In this document: one piece after another, positions 14,259-53,436 of the stretch | How positions within the stretch are numbered: the stretch's first letter is position 1 | Layout of the letters: each line of letters opens with the position of its first letter | DNA from: Rubripirellula amarantea | Lineage (GTDB): Bacteria > Planctomycetota > Planctomycetia > Pirellulales > Pirellulaceae | DNA length: 64,000 nt | Direction: 5' to 3' | Assembly: GCF_007859865.1 (NCBI RefSeq) | Contig: NZ_SJPI01000001.1 | Location: forward strand, 2,559,132-2,623,131 | Notes under the pieces: generated by a model | Database searches by the model: none | Told to the model about the DNA's origin: nothing | The model's input: the letters and a program-made list of their open reading frames with translations, nothing else | Made by a program: the position numbers and the translations under genes

Positions 14259-14332
14259 GGGCGTATAGCTCAGTTGGTTAGAGCGCGTCGCTGATAACGA
14301 CGAGGTCCCAGATTCGAGTTCTGGTACGCCCA
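14259..14332 (+). tRNA. tRNA-Ile (anticodon GAT)
   Basis: 74 bases. The acceptor stem GGGCGTA pairs with TACGCCC, with A as discriminator. D-arm AGCTCAGTTGGTTAGAGC, anticodon GAT at 14293-14295 in loop CTGATAA, T-arm with TTCGAGT. CCA is not encoded. It is followed by tRNA-Ala, the usual pair of the 16S-23S spacer. Confidence 0.97.
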
Positions 14333-14411
14333 TTAAAGGAAACATGGCTGAGGTTTCAGCAAACAGGTCTTTCCCTGTTGCCTGAAAACTGTATCCTGTC
14401 GCCTTACCTTC

Positions 14412-14484
14412 GGGGGTATAGCTCAGTTGGGAGAGCGCCTGCTTTGCAAGCAGGATGTCGTCGGTTCAAGTCCGTCTACCTCCA
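14412..14484 (+). tRNA. tRNA-Ala (anticodon TGC)
   Basis: 73 bases. The acceptor stem GGGGGTA pairs with TACCTCC (one G-T pair), discriminator A. Anticodon TGC at 14445-14447 in the loop between CCTGC and GCAGG. T-arm with GTTCAAGTC. The gap to tRNA-Ile is 79 bases. Confidence 0.97.
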
Positions 14485-14492
14485 CTTTAAGT

Positions 14493-14516
14493 CTCGCACC
14501 TGTCGCATGGTGCGAG
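14493..14516 (+). other. Stem-loop just past tRNA-Ala
   Basis: CTCGCACC (14493-14500) and GGTGCGAG (14509-14516) form a perfect 8-bp stem with an 8-base loop. It begins nine bases after the tRNA and may mark 3' processing; no T-run follows. Confidence 0.6.
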
Positions 14517-14527
14517 CGAAAAAGTAG

Positions 14528-14555
14528 GCACCAAACATTTGGTGCTTTTCTTTTT
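14528..14555 (+). terminator. Intrinsic terminator after the tRNA pair
   Basis: GCACCAAA-CA-TTTGGTGC (14528-14545; in practice a shorter stem with a wider loop) is followed by TTTTCTTTTT. It lies 44 bases past tRNA-Ala and about 750 bases before 23S rRNA, so it should separate the tRNAs from the 23S-5S unit unless antitermination applies. Confidence 0.8.
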
Positions 14556-14610
14556 GGAAATGTCGCGATTGGTTCTTGCGGAAGCCGCTCCAATTTGCAA
14601 TGTTTCGCGA

Positions 14611-14725
14611 CCCGAGAAAACGACGTGAAGAATTCACGATAACTTCTCGGGGGCCGGAAGTCTCATCTCCGAATTCGGAATCATGAGGCTCCCAAGAAGA
14701 GGTTAAGAAAGTTTTTGACTTTCTT
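14611..14725 (+). other. Cluster of three further stem-loops upstream of the 23S promoter
   Basis: (a) CCCGAGAA (14611-14618) pairs with TTCTCGGG (14644-14651), with an inner CGTGAA-GAA-TTCACG. (b) The palindrome TCCGAATTCGGA (14668-14679) is flanked by CTCAT and ATGAG. (c) AAGAAAGT and ACTTTCTT enclose TTTTG near 14705-14725. They could be processing signals of a longer transcript, a small RNA, or relics of an old 16S-23S spacer. No gene is visible here. Confidence 0.55.
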
Positions 14726-14737
14726 GTGAAGACTCGG

Positions 14738-14766
14738 TTGACGGCCTTGAACGCCGACTGTATTCT
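14738..14766 (+). promoter_or_regulatory. Sigma70-type promoter upstream of 23S rRNA
   Basis: TTGACG at 14738-14743, a 17-base spacer, TATTCT at 14761-14766. The region just upstream is A/T-rich as in an UP element. This is the best promoter match between the tRNA terminator and 23S rRNA and would give a leader of about 535 bases. Confidence 0.65.
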
Positions 14767-15015
14767 TCGCCTCCCACTTGGGAAAAACGTCACGCAGGTG
14801 ACCGAATGTGTCTCTCGCTCAGTCAGAGCAAATGAGATGCCTTCGGCTGCTTACGAGCGGCGTCCTGAGTCCTCCCGGATAACCTTCGGCGGCTCAGAAC
14901 TGATATTTTACAATTTGGTTGTTTGGTAATTGGCATCTGAATAAAGAGCAACGCAGCTCTGATCGGATGAGTCATCGCTTCGGTGGTGTGCTTGTTTGTG
15001 AAGAGGTGTCTTGCA

Positions 15016-15026
15016 AGTTCTTTAGA
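15016..15026 (+). promoter_or_regulatory. Possible boxA-like antitermination element
   Basis: AGTTCTTTAGA in the 23S leader resembles the boxA core (TGCTCTTTAACA in E. coli). The match is partial and no boxB hairpin is evident. The rest of the leader (14767-15308) shows no gene. Confidence 0.25.
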
Positions 15027-15308
15027 AGCGTCGCCAGCGAAGTTTGTTTCGCATTGTTTGCCAGAGTGGATTCGTTTGCTTCGGTGAGTTTTGTGAAGTG
15101 GATGGTTGTTGGTGATTTGAATTCGAATCAAGGATTCTGTGCGAGTTGTCGATCGCGATCTTCCCTGCAGCTTGCTGTTGGGTTTTGAAGAGATTGGCAA
15201 CGAATGTGATATCGTTAGTAACTAACTGATTGAAGTTCATGATTCAGGTTGAATGGCTGGCTTTGGTTTTCCAAGGTGAGTTGTTTTGTCTGAGTTCGGG
15301 ATTTCGAC

Positions 15309-18203
<2,895 letters not shown>

Positions 18204-18377
18204 GTCGATATCCCGCACTCTGACAGCTCCTTTATTGGAGTTTCCTTGTCGAGTTCAGATTAAGACGCGTCTAAAAGATTGAGATTCAGTAACCGCATCA
18301 CACTGTCTTCGGACTTGTGTGCTACCAATTACCAAGCAACACGGCTTGCCAGTGGTGAAATACCTGCTGGCAAGTCT

Positions 18378-18488
18378 TTCCGGCGACCATATCGCAAAGG
18401 TTCTACCTGTTCCCATCCCGAACACAGAAGTCAAGCTTTGTGAGCCGATGATAGTGCCCACCAGCGTGAAAGTAGGTATTGCCGGATT
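18378..18488 (+). rRNA. rrf: 5S ribosomal RNA
   Basis: About 111 bases, 175 bases after 23S. Holds CCCATCCCGAACACAGAAGT, the conserved loop A/B region, and GCGTGAAAGTAGGTATTGCC. The terminal stem TCCGGC/GCCGGA sets the ends to within a few bases. Confidence 0.93.
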
Positions 18489-51084: not shown

Positions 51085-52674
51085 CTACGCGTTTTTTTGA
51101 TCTTCTTTATGCAGTTTGTACTCAACGGCGTCGTTGAGAGCCTGCCAACTGGCTTCGATGATGTTTTCACTCACACCGATCGTTCCCCAAGTTTCGTCCT
51201 TGTCACCGCTTTCGATGTTCACGCGAATTGAGGCGGCCGTCCCTGCTCCGCTATCAACCACACGGACCTTGTAGTCAATCAGTCGCATTTCGTTGAGGCA
51301 TGGATACGTGTCGACCAGTGCCTTTCGCAGTGCCGCATCAAGTGCATCGACGGGGCCATGGCCTTCGGCAGCATCGAACCAAAGCGTTTCGCCTACGACA
51401 AGTTTGATGACGGCTTCAGCGAACACCGTGCTATTGGCGCGATCACGATCGCCCGCAACGATTCGGTACTTAATCGCATTGAAGTGCGGCGTATAGGTTT
51501 CTGAGAGTCGCCGGATCAGCAAGTTAAAGGAAGCGTTCGCATTCTCGTACTGATAGCCCTGGTTTTCGCGTTTCACCACCTCGGCCAGGATTCGATTCAT
51601 TAGTTCTTTGTCGTCAGCGATGTTGTGCTGTGACGCGACCGCTTCAATGTTACTGCGACCGGACAATTCACTGACCAAGATCCGTCGTTCGTTGCCAACG
51701 ACAGCCGGATCGATGTGCTCGTATGTGCTGGCGGCCTTATTGATGGCGTGTACGTGCATCCCGCCCTTGTGTGCAAACGCGCTCTGTCCGACAAACGGTT
51801 GGCCACCCCTCAATTGCAAGTTCGCGGTTTCATAAACGAAGCGACTCAACTCGGTAAGTGACGTTAGAGGACGACCGTCCAGGACGGTGTAGCCGGTCTT
51901 CTTGATCGCAAGGTTTGCCATCACTGATATCAAGTCCGCATTTCCGCAACGCTCGCCGATGCCGTTGATGGTGCCTTGAACCTGGGTTGCACCGGCGTCC
52001 ACGGCGGCAAGCGAGTTCGCGACGGCAAGCTCGCCATCGTTGTGAGTGTGAATGCCGATTTGCACTCCGTAAGCCGACAACCAATTGACTGCTTTGGCGG
52101 TGATGTCGGCAACTTCTTCCGGGAGGGTTCCTCCGTTTGTGTCGCAGAATACTAACCACTTCGCACCCGCGGATGCGGCGGCCTTGAGCGTGTCGATGGC
52201 ATAGTCGGGGTTGGCCTTGAAACCATCAAAGAAATGCTCGGCGTCGTAGATGACGTCAGCGCTTTGAGCCAAGAACTCGGTGCTTTCGCCGATCATGGCA
52301 AGGTTTTCATCAAGCGATACTCGCAGCACTTCGGTTGCGTGGTAGTCCCAGGTCTTGCCAACCAAAGTGATACAGGGAGTCTGGGCGGCGACGAGGGCTT
52401 GCATGCCGGGATCATCGGCGGCCTTCATCGAACGACGTCGTGTCATGCCAAAGGCGCAAATCTTTGAACCGCCCAGGTCGTCTTTTCGGATCTGCTCGAA
52501 GAACGCAACGTCCTTTTCGTTCGAAAGCGGGTAGCCGCCCTCGATGAAGTCGATGCCGGTTTCTGCCAACCGCCGAGCGATGCTTAGCTTGTCTTGCAAC
52601 GAAAAGCTTACGCCTTCGCCCTGGGAGCCGTCTCGGAGAGTGGTGTCGTAGATTTGGATTGCTTTAGCAGACAT
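51085..52674 (-). CDS. cimA: Citramalate synthase
   Basis: Condenses pyruvate with acetyl-CoA to (R)-citramalate, the entry to threonine-independent isoleucine synthesis. N-terminal HMGL-like TIM barrel: YDTTLRDGSQGEGVSFS at 9-25, FIEGGYPLSN, CDTNGG, and the metal/catalytic IHTHNDGELAVANS. Linker domain GGMHVHAINKA, then a C-terminal LeuA-type allosteric domain from about 390. YDTTLRDGSQGEG and LVGKTWDYH are typical of CimA rather than LeuA. ATG 52674 gives 529 residues; the frame is open to 52863 but those codons lie in the leader with the attenuator. Confidence 0.93.
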   Translation of the reverse strand: MSAKAIQIYDTTLRDGSQGEGVSFSLQDKLSIARRLAETGIDFIEGGYPLSNEKDVAFFEQIRKDDLGGSKICAFGMTRRRSMKAADDPGMQALVAAQTPCITLVGKTWDYHATEVLRVSLDENLAMIGESTEFLAQSADVIYDAEHFFDGFKANPDYAIDTLKAAASAGAKWLVFCDTNGGTLPEEVADITAKAVNWLSAYGVQIGIHTHNDGELAVANSLAAVDAGATQVQGTINGIGERCGNADLISVMANLAIKKTGYTVLDGRPLTSLTELSRFVYETANLQLRGGQPFVGQSAFAHKGGMHVHAINKAASTYEHIDPAVVGNERRILVSELSGRSNIEAVASQHNIADDKELMNRILAEVVKRENQGYQYENANASFNLLIRRLSETYTPHFNAIKYRIVAGDRDRANSTVFAEAVIKLVVGETLWFDAAEGHGPVDALDAALRKALVDTYPCLNEMRLIDYKVRVVDSGAGTAASIRVNIESGDKDETWGTIGVSENIIEASWQALNDAVEYKLHKEDQKNA

Positions 52675-52717
52675 GTAATTGCCTAGACTCTCAAACGAAT
52701 TGCTTAGTCGTGATACG

Positions 52718-52750
52718 AAAAAACCCCCGAACCCTTGAAGGACTCGGGGG
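52718..52750 (-). terminator. Intrinsic terminator in the cimA leader (attenuator)
   Basis: On the minus strand CCCCCGAGTCC, loop TTCAA, GGGTTCGGGGG: an 11-bp stem with two G-T pairs, followed at once by TTTTTT (52723-52718). It lies 44 bases before the cimA ATG and on the same strand, downstream of a promoter and a leader peptide. Alternatively it ends transcripts from the FKBP gene upstream, but the promoter in between argues for attenuation. Confidence 0.85.
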
Positions 52751-52838
52751 CAAATGTTGGGGGCTCTGCGTTTTGGTGCGCTGAAATGCTGGCGGAGAAA
52801 TCGATCTACGATTCTCGACCAGCCCCATCCATCGTTCC

Positions 52839-52871
52839 CCGCGTCATGGCTGGCTGTTGCCAATGACGCGG
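52839..52871 (-). promoter_or_regulatory. Leader hairpin (1:2-type) over the leader peptide stop
   Basis: CCGCGTCAT (52871-52863) and ATGACGCGG (52847-52839) are exact complements; an inner TGGC/GCCA lengthens the stem. The 5' arm covers the Arg-Val-Ile codons of the leader peptide and the 3' arm covers its TGA. A G-run right after the 3' arm (CGGGG, 52841-52837) could pair with the C-run that opens the terminator. Confidence 0.7.
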
Positions 52872-52915
52872 TCGATAATCGACTCGATCGACGAGGAAAG
52901 GTTGCGCTGACGCAT
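52844..52915 (-). CDS. Ile-rich leader peptide of cimA
   Basis: A 23-codon frame, ATG 52915 to TGA 52844, with AGGA nine bases upstream of the ATG. It opens MRQRNLSSS and continues IESIIDRVIGNSQP. Four of 23 residues are Ile (codons 10, 13, 14, 18) and one each Val and Leu; the Ile codons stand just before or inside the 5' arm of a strong hairpin. This is the layout of ribosome-stalling leader peptides of ilv, leu and trp operons. Isoleucine as effector is inferred. Confidence 0.72.
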   Translation of the reverse strand: MRQRNLSSSIESIIDRVIGNSQP

Positions 52916-52949
52916 AATGCGGGTTCCTAAATGGAATGGGGACGCCCTG

Positions 52950-52977
52950 AGAATAGGTTGGATTTCACAAATGTCAA
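52950..52977 (-). promoter_or_regulatory. Sigma70-type promoter of cimA
   Basis: Minus strand TTGACA (52977-52972), 16-base spacer, TATTCT (52955-52950). The -35 is a perfect match. Transcription would begin near 52943, about 28 bases before the leader peptide ATG. The -35 is 13 bases past the stop of the FKBP gene. Confidence 0.75.
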
Positions 52978-52989
52978 TCCGTGCCCTGA

Positions 52990-53436
52990 TCAGTGAATCT
53001 TGTGCAATTCGACTTTAAAGTGCAGCGTCGCATTGGGCGGGATCGACCCGCTGCCGCTAGCGCCGTATCCCAGTTCTGATGGGATTTCCAGCTCAATCAT
53101 GCCGCCTTCGCCGATCAATTGCAGGCCCTCGGTCCAGCCGGCAACCACGTTTCCAAGTCGAAATTTCGCAGTTTTGCGACTGTTGTACGAACTGTCGAAG
53201 ATCGTGCCATTGTCCAGCCAGCCCGAATAGTCGACTTCGACTTCGTCCTGAGGCGTCGGTCTGGGGCCGTCCGACTTTCGCAAGATGCGGTACTTTAGCC
53301 CGGATTCGGTAGTTGTGAACTCTTCCGGTGCATCAAGGTCGATCGCCATCGGTCCTCGTGGGGCACTGCAACCCAAGGTGATCGACATCAACGCGATAGC
53401 GAAGTAACACAGGAATGACAGAGAATGTTTTTTCAT
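52990..53436 (-). CDS. FKBP-type peptidyl-prolyl isomerase, lipoprotein
   Basis: 148 residues from ATG 53436; the frame is open to 53505. MKKHSLSFLCYFAIALMSIT then LGC gives a lipobox with Cys 24, so it is lipid-anchored outside the cytoplasm. The FKBP fold follows: VEVDYSGWLDN, IFDSSYNSRK, VVAGWTEGLQLIGEGGM, IPSELGYG, LHFKVELHKIH. Close relative of the cytosolic protein at 18613-19026. Confidence 0.92.
   Translation of the reverse strand: MKKHSLSFLCYFAIALMSITLGCSAPRGPMAIDLDAPEEFTTTESGLKYRILRKSDGPRPTPQDEVEVDYSGWLDNGTIFDSSYNSRKTAKFRLGNVVAGWTEGLQLIGEGGMIELEIPSELGYGASGSGSIPPNATLHFKVELHKIH

Follow-up and report, generated by a model that had tools for sequence, protein, structure and literature searches.

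The cimA locus and its leader

The 64,000-nucleotide stretch of the Rubripirellula amarantea genome analysed here (contig NZ_SJPI01000001.1, positions 2,559,132 to 2,623,131 of the forward strand; the whole stretch is called the window below) carries on its minus strand cimA, the gene for citramalate synthase, preceded by a leader in which a short frame rich in isoleucine (Ile) codons is followed by an intrinsic terminator. This leader is very probably a ribosome-mediated transcription attenuator with charged tRNA-Ile as its signal. A sequence-only reading of the window had claimed the order promoter, AGGA, 23-codon Ile frame, stem over the stop codon, terminator with T6 and cimA, and this order was exact on direct reading (Table 1). 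The 304-nucleotide leader stretch folds with a z-score of -4.40, none of 100 shuffles being equally stable.

Table 1. Parts of the cimA leader region, with positions in the window
Feature	Position	Strand	Remark and basis
Promoter-like site TTGACA-16-TATTCT	52950..52977	minus	presumed promoter of the leader transcript; sequence read
AGGA, possible Shine-Dalgarno sequence, 9 nucleotides 5′ of leader ATG 52915	52925..52928	minus	sequence only
Leader peptide frame MRQRNLSSSIESIIDRVIGNSQP-stop, 23 codons and TGA	52844..52915	minus	sequence; Ile enrichment in relatives
Ile13-Ile14, candidate control codons (ATT ATC), directly 5′ of the stem 1 5′ arm	52874..52879	minus	sequence and fold model
Region 1, 5′ arm of stem 1, CCGCGTCAT	52863..52871	minus	sequence, folds
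Region 2, ATGACGCGGGG, stem 1 3′ arm and antiterminator 5′ half; includes the leader stop codon	52837..52847	minus	pairing scans, folds
Middle hairpin, enclosed by the antiterminator between regions 2 and 3	52788..52823	minus	fold of the window leader
Region 3, initial segment of the terminator 5′ arm; its CCCCGAGTC (52749-52741) is the antiterminator 3′ half	52741..52751	minus	sequence, folds
Terminator hairpin, 13 pairs, -20.3 kcal/mol	52723..52751	minus	fold
T6 tract after the terminator hairpin	52718..52723	minus	sequence
cimA, citramalate synthase, 529 amino acids, ATG 52674	51085..52674	minus	NCBIfam TIGR00977, 652 bits (cut-off 450)

The Ile residues of the leader frame are codons 10, 13, 14 and 18, and its stop codon lies at 52846-52844. 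In stem 1, CCGCGTCAT (52871-52863) pairs with ATGACGCGG (52847-52839), and the 3′ arm holds the leader stop codon; the pairing and the overlap with the stop codon are thus as claimed, whereas the 5′ arm, which had been placed in the Arg-Val-Ile codons, starts earlier, at the last base of Asp15. Likewise, the proposed antiterminator between a G-run (CGGGG at 52841-52837) and a C-run exists and is longer than had been thought: the folded form joins GACGCGGGG with CCCCGAGUC (52845-52837 with 52749-52741) in eight pairs around one mismatch. The terminator sits between the leader frame and cimA.

A single CimA is encoded in the 6.9 Mb genome, together with one distantly related protein (30% identity), which is leuA by TIGR00973. 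The closest named relative among the matches listed (the top 80 of at least 587 loci) is Rubripirellula obstinata, with a CimA identity of 85%. A longer CimA, starting from TTG 52863 in the same open frame, was set aside: it would cross the terminator, and an ATG stands at the aligned start in most of the core loci inspected by eye.

Conservation and amino-acid specificity of the leaders

CimA was sought in 60 relatives (57 matched at an E-value of 1e-150), in 128 genomes of the phylum, where 51 matched at 1e-120, in 118 genomes of the class (115 at 1e-120) and also in named genomes, where at least 587 loci matched and the 80 best were kept. From the 115 class matches, 30 loci were taken automatically and 40 were picked to spread over genera. 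G020 (a partial gene) and G086 were left out of the comparison. Upstream DNA was analysed for 252 loci, reduced to 233 by the removal of duplicates and of L108 and L175, which have too little of it. Terminators were detected from folds, as a hairpin followed by a T-run; at a cut of -10 kcal/mol, one was present upstream of cimA in 131 of the 233 loci. Later counts were restricted to 162 loci because the kinship of their genomes is stated, and 93 of these have a terminator at a cut of -12 kcal/mol.

A terminator is present in 19 of the 22 loci of the genus and its near relatives (a count that includes the window). In 16 of the 19 it is accompanied by a short frame with at least three Ile codons, and all 16 frames also hold an Ile-Ile pair; one further locus with a terminator, L094, is truncated by a contig end. 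The sequence-only reading had named relatives that keep the terminator and lose the Ile leader as the pattern contrary to its proposal, and with 16 of 19 keeping both this pattern is the exception. In the remaining loci of the order, a terminator is present in 42 of 51, together with such a frame in 32; the corresponding counts are 17 of 20 and 15 for family f21, 7 of 11 and 2 for family f75, 1 of 2 and 1 for f78, and 0 of 2 and 0 for f76. Of the 20 core loci with a terminator, 18 have upstream of it a promoter-like sequence consisting of TTGAC(A/G), a spacer of 16-17 nucleotides and a weak -10 element (3-4 of 6 matches).

These relatives also bear on the idea that the hairpin is the ordinary terminator of an upstream FKBP gene, that the short frame arose by chance and that cimA has a start of its own after 52718. 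The terminator is strong and, in the window, FKBP does lie directly upstream of the leader on the same strand, as this explanation would have it. Yet among 23 core loci only 4 yielded an FKBP gene 5′ of cimA (the window, L086, L087 and L089; L094 and L005 have little upstream DNA) and not in the other 19; it was not found for 14 of the 16 core Ile leaders, and therefore the terminator is not simply that of FKBP. Moreover, a promoter-like site, the sole one detected in 52600-53100 (shuffles gave 0.3, standard deviation 0.7), stands between FKBP and the leader, and the Ile enrichment (z 23-26, see below) speaks against a chance frame. That the terminator only serves the FKBP mRNA, an outcome which the sequence-only reading had allowed for, is thus disfavoured, and the explanation as a whole is most improbable.

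The specificity of the leaders was followed by counting the codons of each of the 20 amino acids in the last 15 codons of the best short frame, with a stop within 130 nucleotides of the terminator, in the 93 cimA regions with a terminator and in dinucleotide shuffles of them. The Ile codons that had been expected to be conserved in the short frame stand out from all others, with 314 observed against 89.5 in the shuffles (z 26.3); valine (Val) follows with z 9.8, and all remaining amino acids range from -3.4 to 4.5. When one locus per genus is taken, the values are 23.3 for Ile and 6.5 for Val, and at least three Ile codons are found in 46 of 63 genera, versus 161 of 3150 shuffled regions (5%) and 4 of 63 reverse strands. 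In all, 71 of the 93 loci have a leader with at least three Ile, and 58 of these 71 contain an Ile-Ile pair. The choice of Ile codons in the leaders is unusual as well, with ATT 211, ATC 71 and ATA 2 times, whereas the cimA genes use these codons 466, 1310 and 28 times (odds 8.4).

The same scan was applied to leuA and to seven control genes in the window genome and 27 relatives from its genus and order. All 28 leuA loci were scanned, giving 27 after deduplication, of which 22 have a terminator, and here it is leucine (Leu) that is enriched (z 16.5), with Ile at -0.5 and the others at no more than 2.5. At least four Leu codons occur in all 22 leuA leaders with a terminator, and CTA makes up 41 of their 131 Leu codons versus 30 of 734 in the leuA genes. 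The window genome's own leuA leader (L291, G000:C1:1046317-1047798) reads MQTYLLTLSLLLGRQFGG, is Leu-rich and is followed by a terminator.

Terminators are rare at the control genes (11 of 179 deduplicated loci), with 5 of 26 loci scanned for ilvB (26 fetched), 1 of 26 for trpE (30 fetched), 0 of 27 for hisG (30 fetched), 1 of 26 for ilvD (30 fetched), 0 of 24 for leuC (26 fetched), 0 of 26 for ilvC (27 fetched) and 4 of 24 for ileS (30 fetched), the omitted loci being mostly second or partial matches; hisG is often inside an operon, which makes the DNA 5′ of it a poor test for leaders. As further attenuated genes these seven were set aside, no codon-matched leader having been noticed in them except at one ilvD locus (L393, genome G045). 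There, a leader rich in Ile, Leu and Val ends in ...LLALIIILIVALIPGACGS and is followed by a terminator, its stop region is complementary to the terminator arm (-18.7 kcal/mol), and ilvD, ilvC and ilvB are consecutive; CimA was not found in this genome at an E-value of 1e-150.

The stop-codon region and a proposed ribosome-dependent switch

If the leader is an attenuator, a segment upstream of the terminator has to compete for its 5′ arm. A 20-nucleotide segment was slid along the leader and its pairing energy with the terminator 5′ arm was computed in the 71 loci with at least three Ile, which also served for the permutations and folds below and which were selected on Ile content, not on pairing. 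The pairing peaks at the leader stop codon, where it reaches -15.7 kcal/mol with the locus's own arm and -11.5 with the arms of other loci, as compared to about -5.5 further upstream. When arms were re-assigned between loci, none of 5000 permutations reached the observed mean, with the core genus included or excluded, so the covariation which had been looked for upstream of cimA is found between genera. In leuA leaders the pairing of the terminator arm also peaks at the stop codon (-17.0 kcal/mol; 22 loci, own arms only). From this peak it follows that the antiterminator 5′ half and the leader stop codon overlap; a ribosome that has arrived at the stop therefore covers this half, and one waiting at the control codons leaves it accessible. 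According to the folds, the stop-codon segment doubles as the 3′ arm of stem 1 in the core genus.

Two further explanations have to be weighed at this point. The leader might exert some other translation-dependent control, its ribosome blocking Rho or the nascent peptide causing the stall, with the hairpin being secondary; this would fit the 69 of 162 loci in which no intrinsic terminator was detected. It is nevertheless very unlikely, as changes in the terminator arm are matched by changes in the stop-codon region from genus to genus, and as the leader peptides, judged by eye, are diverse apart from Ile and Val, which argues against a nascent-chain signal. A metabolite riboswitch or a T-box could instead read isoleucine or tRNA-Ile directly, the frame being incidental, and strong structure 5′ of an amino-acid gene is what such a device would show; moreover, a T-box-like match (2136-2446, E 1.8e-16, below the gathering score) precedes cimA in one Chloroflexi metagenome-assembled genome (L076), whose cimA may use a different tRNA-sensing device. 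For the window leader, on the other hand, an Rfam scan gave no family at the gathering threshold, the best E-value of 0.29 being at chance level (values up to 1 were considered), and the T-box model RF00230 had no match at gathering or at E up to 1. The features that are conserved are in-frame codons and complementarity to the stop-codon region, with Leu codons before leuA, all of which makes a direct sensor most unlikely. A search of the leader against a plasmid collection gave no match.

For the attenuator, the events would be as follows. RNA polymerase would start just after 52950 and a ribosome would translate the 23-codon leader, two events for which the promoter-like site and AGGA are the sequence signs. 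When Ile-tRNA is plentiful, the ribosome would reach the stop codon and cover region 2 (52847-52837), upon which the terminator would form and transcription would end before cimA. When Ile-tRNA is scarce, the ribosome would wait at Ile13 or Ile14 (or Ile18) and cover region 1, leaving region 2 to pair with region 3 once the latter is made; the terminator would then come too late and cimA would be transcribed. Without translation, stem 1:2 would form, and then the terminator.

This scheme was followed in silico. Without a ribosome, the window leader folds into stem 1:2 plus the terminator. With the A site at Ile13 (and the 3′ edge of the ribosome at least 13 nucleotides on), Ile14 or Ile18, 8.2 pairs of 2:3 are expected and at most 0.1 of 1:2, figures which hold for the RNA before the 3′ arm of the terminator is made. 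With the ribosome at Ile10, stem 1 is mostly retained; the claim that stalling at the Ile codons frees the antiterminator is thus borne out by the model for codons 13, 14 and 18 and mostly not for codon 10. A ribosome at the stop codon masks region 2 and the terminator alone forms, the absence of 2:3 there being by construction because the ribosome masks region 2, the one region that the window model counts. In the 71 loci, the upstream pairing of the terminator arm is 0.72 when stalled versus 0.24 at the stop; the difference exceeds 0.25 in the expected direction in 52 loci, and no locus shows a reverse difference of that size. Among the 16 core loci, 14 are expected to form about three or more 2:3 pairs under a stall, and L085 retains much of stem 1 in that state.

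Several results weigh against this interpretation. In the genus and its near relatives, five of the 22 loci lack the terminator or the leader: L086 and L087 keep the terminator and the promoter and have lost the leader frame, so that a bare terminator precedes cimA, and L092, L098 and L101 have no terminator. Of the 93 terminator loci, 22 have fewer than three Ile. Family f74 has a terminator in 2 of 17 loci and no frame with at least three Ile, and outside the class the terminator share is low (5 of 37, all five with such a frame); as these counts differ between groups, the distribution of the element is patchy, with some groups in which it is frequent and others in which it is rare or missing. 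Within the core genus covariation is barely measurable: own and swapped arms are no different there (18% of permutations are as good, the sequences being nearly fixed), and an alignment of 17 core sequences has double-sided changes at two stem 1 pairs only, with 17 of 500 shuffles reaching its covariation score. As to the folds, a ribosome at Ile13 with its edge 10 or 12 nucleotides on frees the antiterminator partially (4.3 and 5.8 pairs), L100 and L103 fail to switch, and L089 and L091 form 2:3 even without a ribosome. The window itself goes the wrong way in the 71-locus model (0.48 at the stall, 0.60 at the stop), the reason being that this run placed the stall at Ile10 and counted upstream pairing of any kind. 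Finally, in the full-length RNA at equilibrium the terminator wins in most loci, and in the window it does so even with a stalled ribosome. Control would therefore have to be kinetic, with timing being decisive, as it also is in the trp scheme according to the available part of PMC1183508. From the whole of the comparative and folding results, we infer that the leader is translated, that the ribosome stalls in it and that this affects transcription.

Gene neighbours, known attenuators and meaning for the phylum

The enrichment of Val has a counterpart in the gene order. Valine-tRNA ligase (valS; TIGR00422, checked on L479) is encoded directly 3′ of cimA, in the same orientation, at 36 of the 49 leader loci that could be judged (e.g., L087 and L090), a further 22 having insufficient downstream DNA. 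Leaders contain 2.0 Val codons where valS follows cimA versus 0.7 elsewhere (p 4.7e-4, uncorrected for kinship). In the window, no valS lies directly 3′ of cimA. Elsewhere in the window, at 14259-18487, genes for tRNA-Ile(GAT), tRNA-Ala(TGC) and 23S and 5S rRNA are present, and no 16S gene was found within it.

More distant groups were inspected as well. Family f75 and the named Gemmata-like genomes have a terminator in 11 of the 15 loci inspected, and their best frames, picked by Ile plus Val, are mostly Val-rich, with a stop pairing of -7.7 to -18.8 kcal/mol. The leader of Gemmata sp. IIL30 (L040) ends in ...VAIIATVVVITTG and has a stop pairing of -17.2 kcal/mol, and a cimA leader of the same design occurs in a Gemmataceae metagenome-assembled genome (L027). 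In a deltaproteobacterial metagenome-assembled genome (L058), a short frame with five consecutive Ile codons and a terminator lies 5′ of cimA.

Attenuators of the leu and ilv operons are known in Proteobacteria. The leader-peptide scheme of their trp and his attenuators is set out in PMC1183508. The cimA leader shares with the Proteobacterial systems the control codons for the end product, the regions 1:2, 2:3 and 3:4, and the intrinsic terminator before the structural gene; it differs in its target, the citramalate entry to isoleucine, in that region 2 holds the leader stop codon, and in its occurrence in Planctomycetota. Candidates before ilvB and leuA in Actinobacteria (PMC1262725, in the part available) similarly have frames rich in Ile, Leu and Val or in Leu before branched-chain genes. 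In their ilvB candidates the leader codons overlap the terminator, whereas the cimA leader has an intrinsic terminator with an antiterminator at the stop codon, and the LEU element of leuA is, unlike the cimA leader, a pseudoknot with a stem to the Shine-Dalgarno box; neither cimA nor Planctomycetes occur in the text of that paper. The ilvB-II, ilvB-OMG and ilvB motifs (PMC10272879, available part) also comprise upstream open reading frames with branched-chain codons, for which attenuation was suggested, but they belong to ilvB, not cimA, and come from Corynebacterium, Leptospira and, for ilvB-OMG, various phyla; in the planctomycete relatives scanned, ilvB rarely has a terminator.

No attenuator before citramalate synthase in planctomycetes was known to the sequence-only reading, and the open-access literature agrees with this as far as it was searched: no report of such a leader was found among the hits listed for cimA (citramalate synthase) and for attenuation in Planctomycetes or Rhodopirellula, subscription papers lying outside the search. 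A tally of leader genes that covers Planctomycetes (PMC4833913) contains neither cimA nor isoleucine in its text, and the available part of PMC2494555 reports no T-box in its one planctomycete genome. The mechanism is thus already known, while the gene and the phylum appear to be new within the open-access papers searched.

The cimA leader would extend ribosome-mediated attenuation to citramalate synthase and to the Planctomycetota, and its built-in specificity control, Ile for cimA and Leu for leuA, predicts the signal of each switch. Beyond this locus, it is rather likely that Planctomycetes have widespread and possibly ancestral attenuators matched to the amino acid, in which the 5′ half of the antiterminator is built on the stop codon and the sensor follows the content of the operon. 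Such a sensor, if true, would account for the additional Val codons where valS follows cimA and for the Ile/Leu/Val leader before ilvD in G045. Since attenuation needs a ribosome close behind RNA polymerase, it would also imply that transcription and translation are coupled in the phylum, including the relatives of Gemmata. In the latter, a spatial separation of transcription and translation has reportedly been proposed, and the question is said to have been argued for long. The cimA leaders in Gemmata sp. IIL30 and in the Gemmataceae genome make this question of coupling testable.

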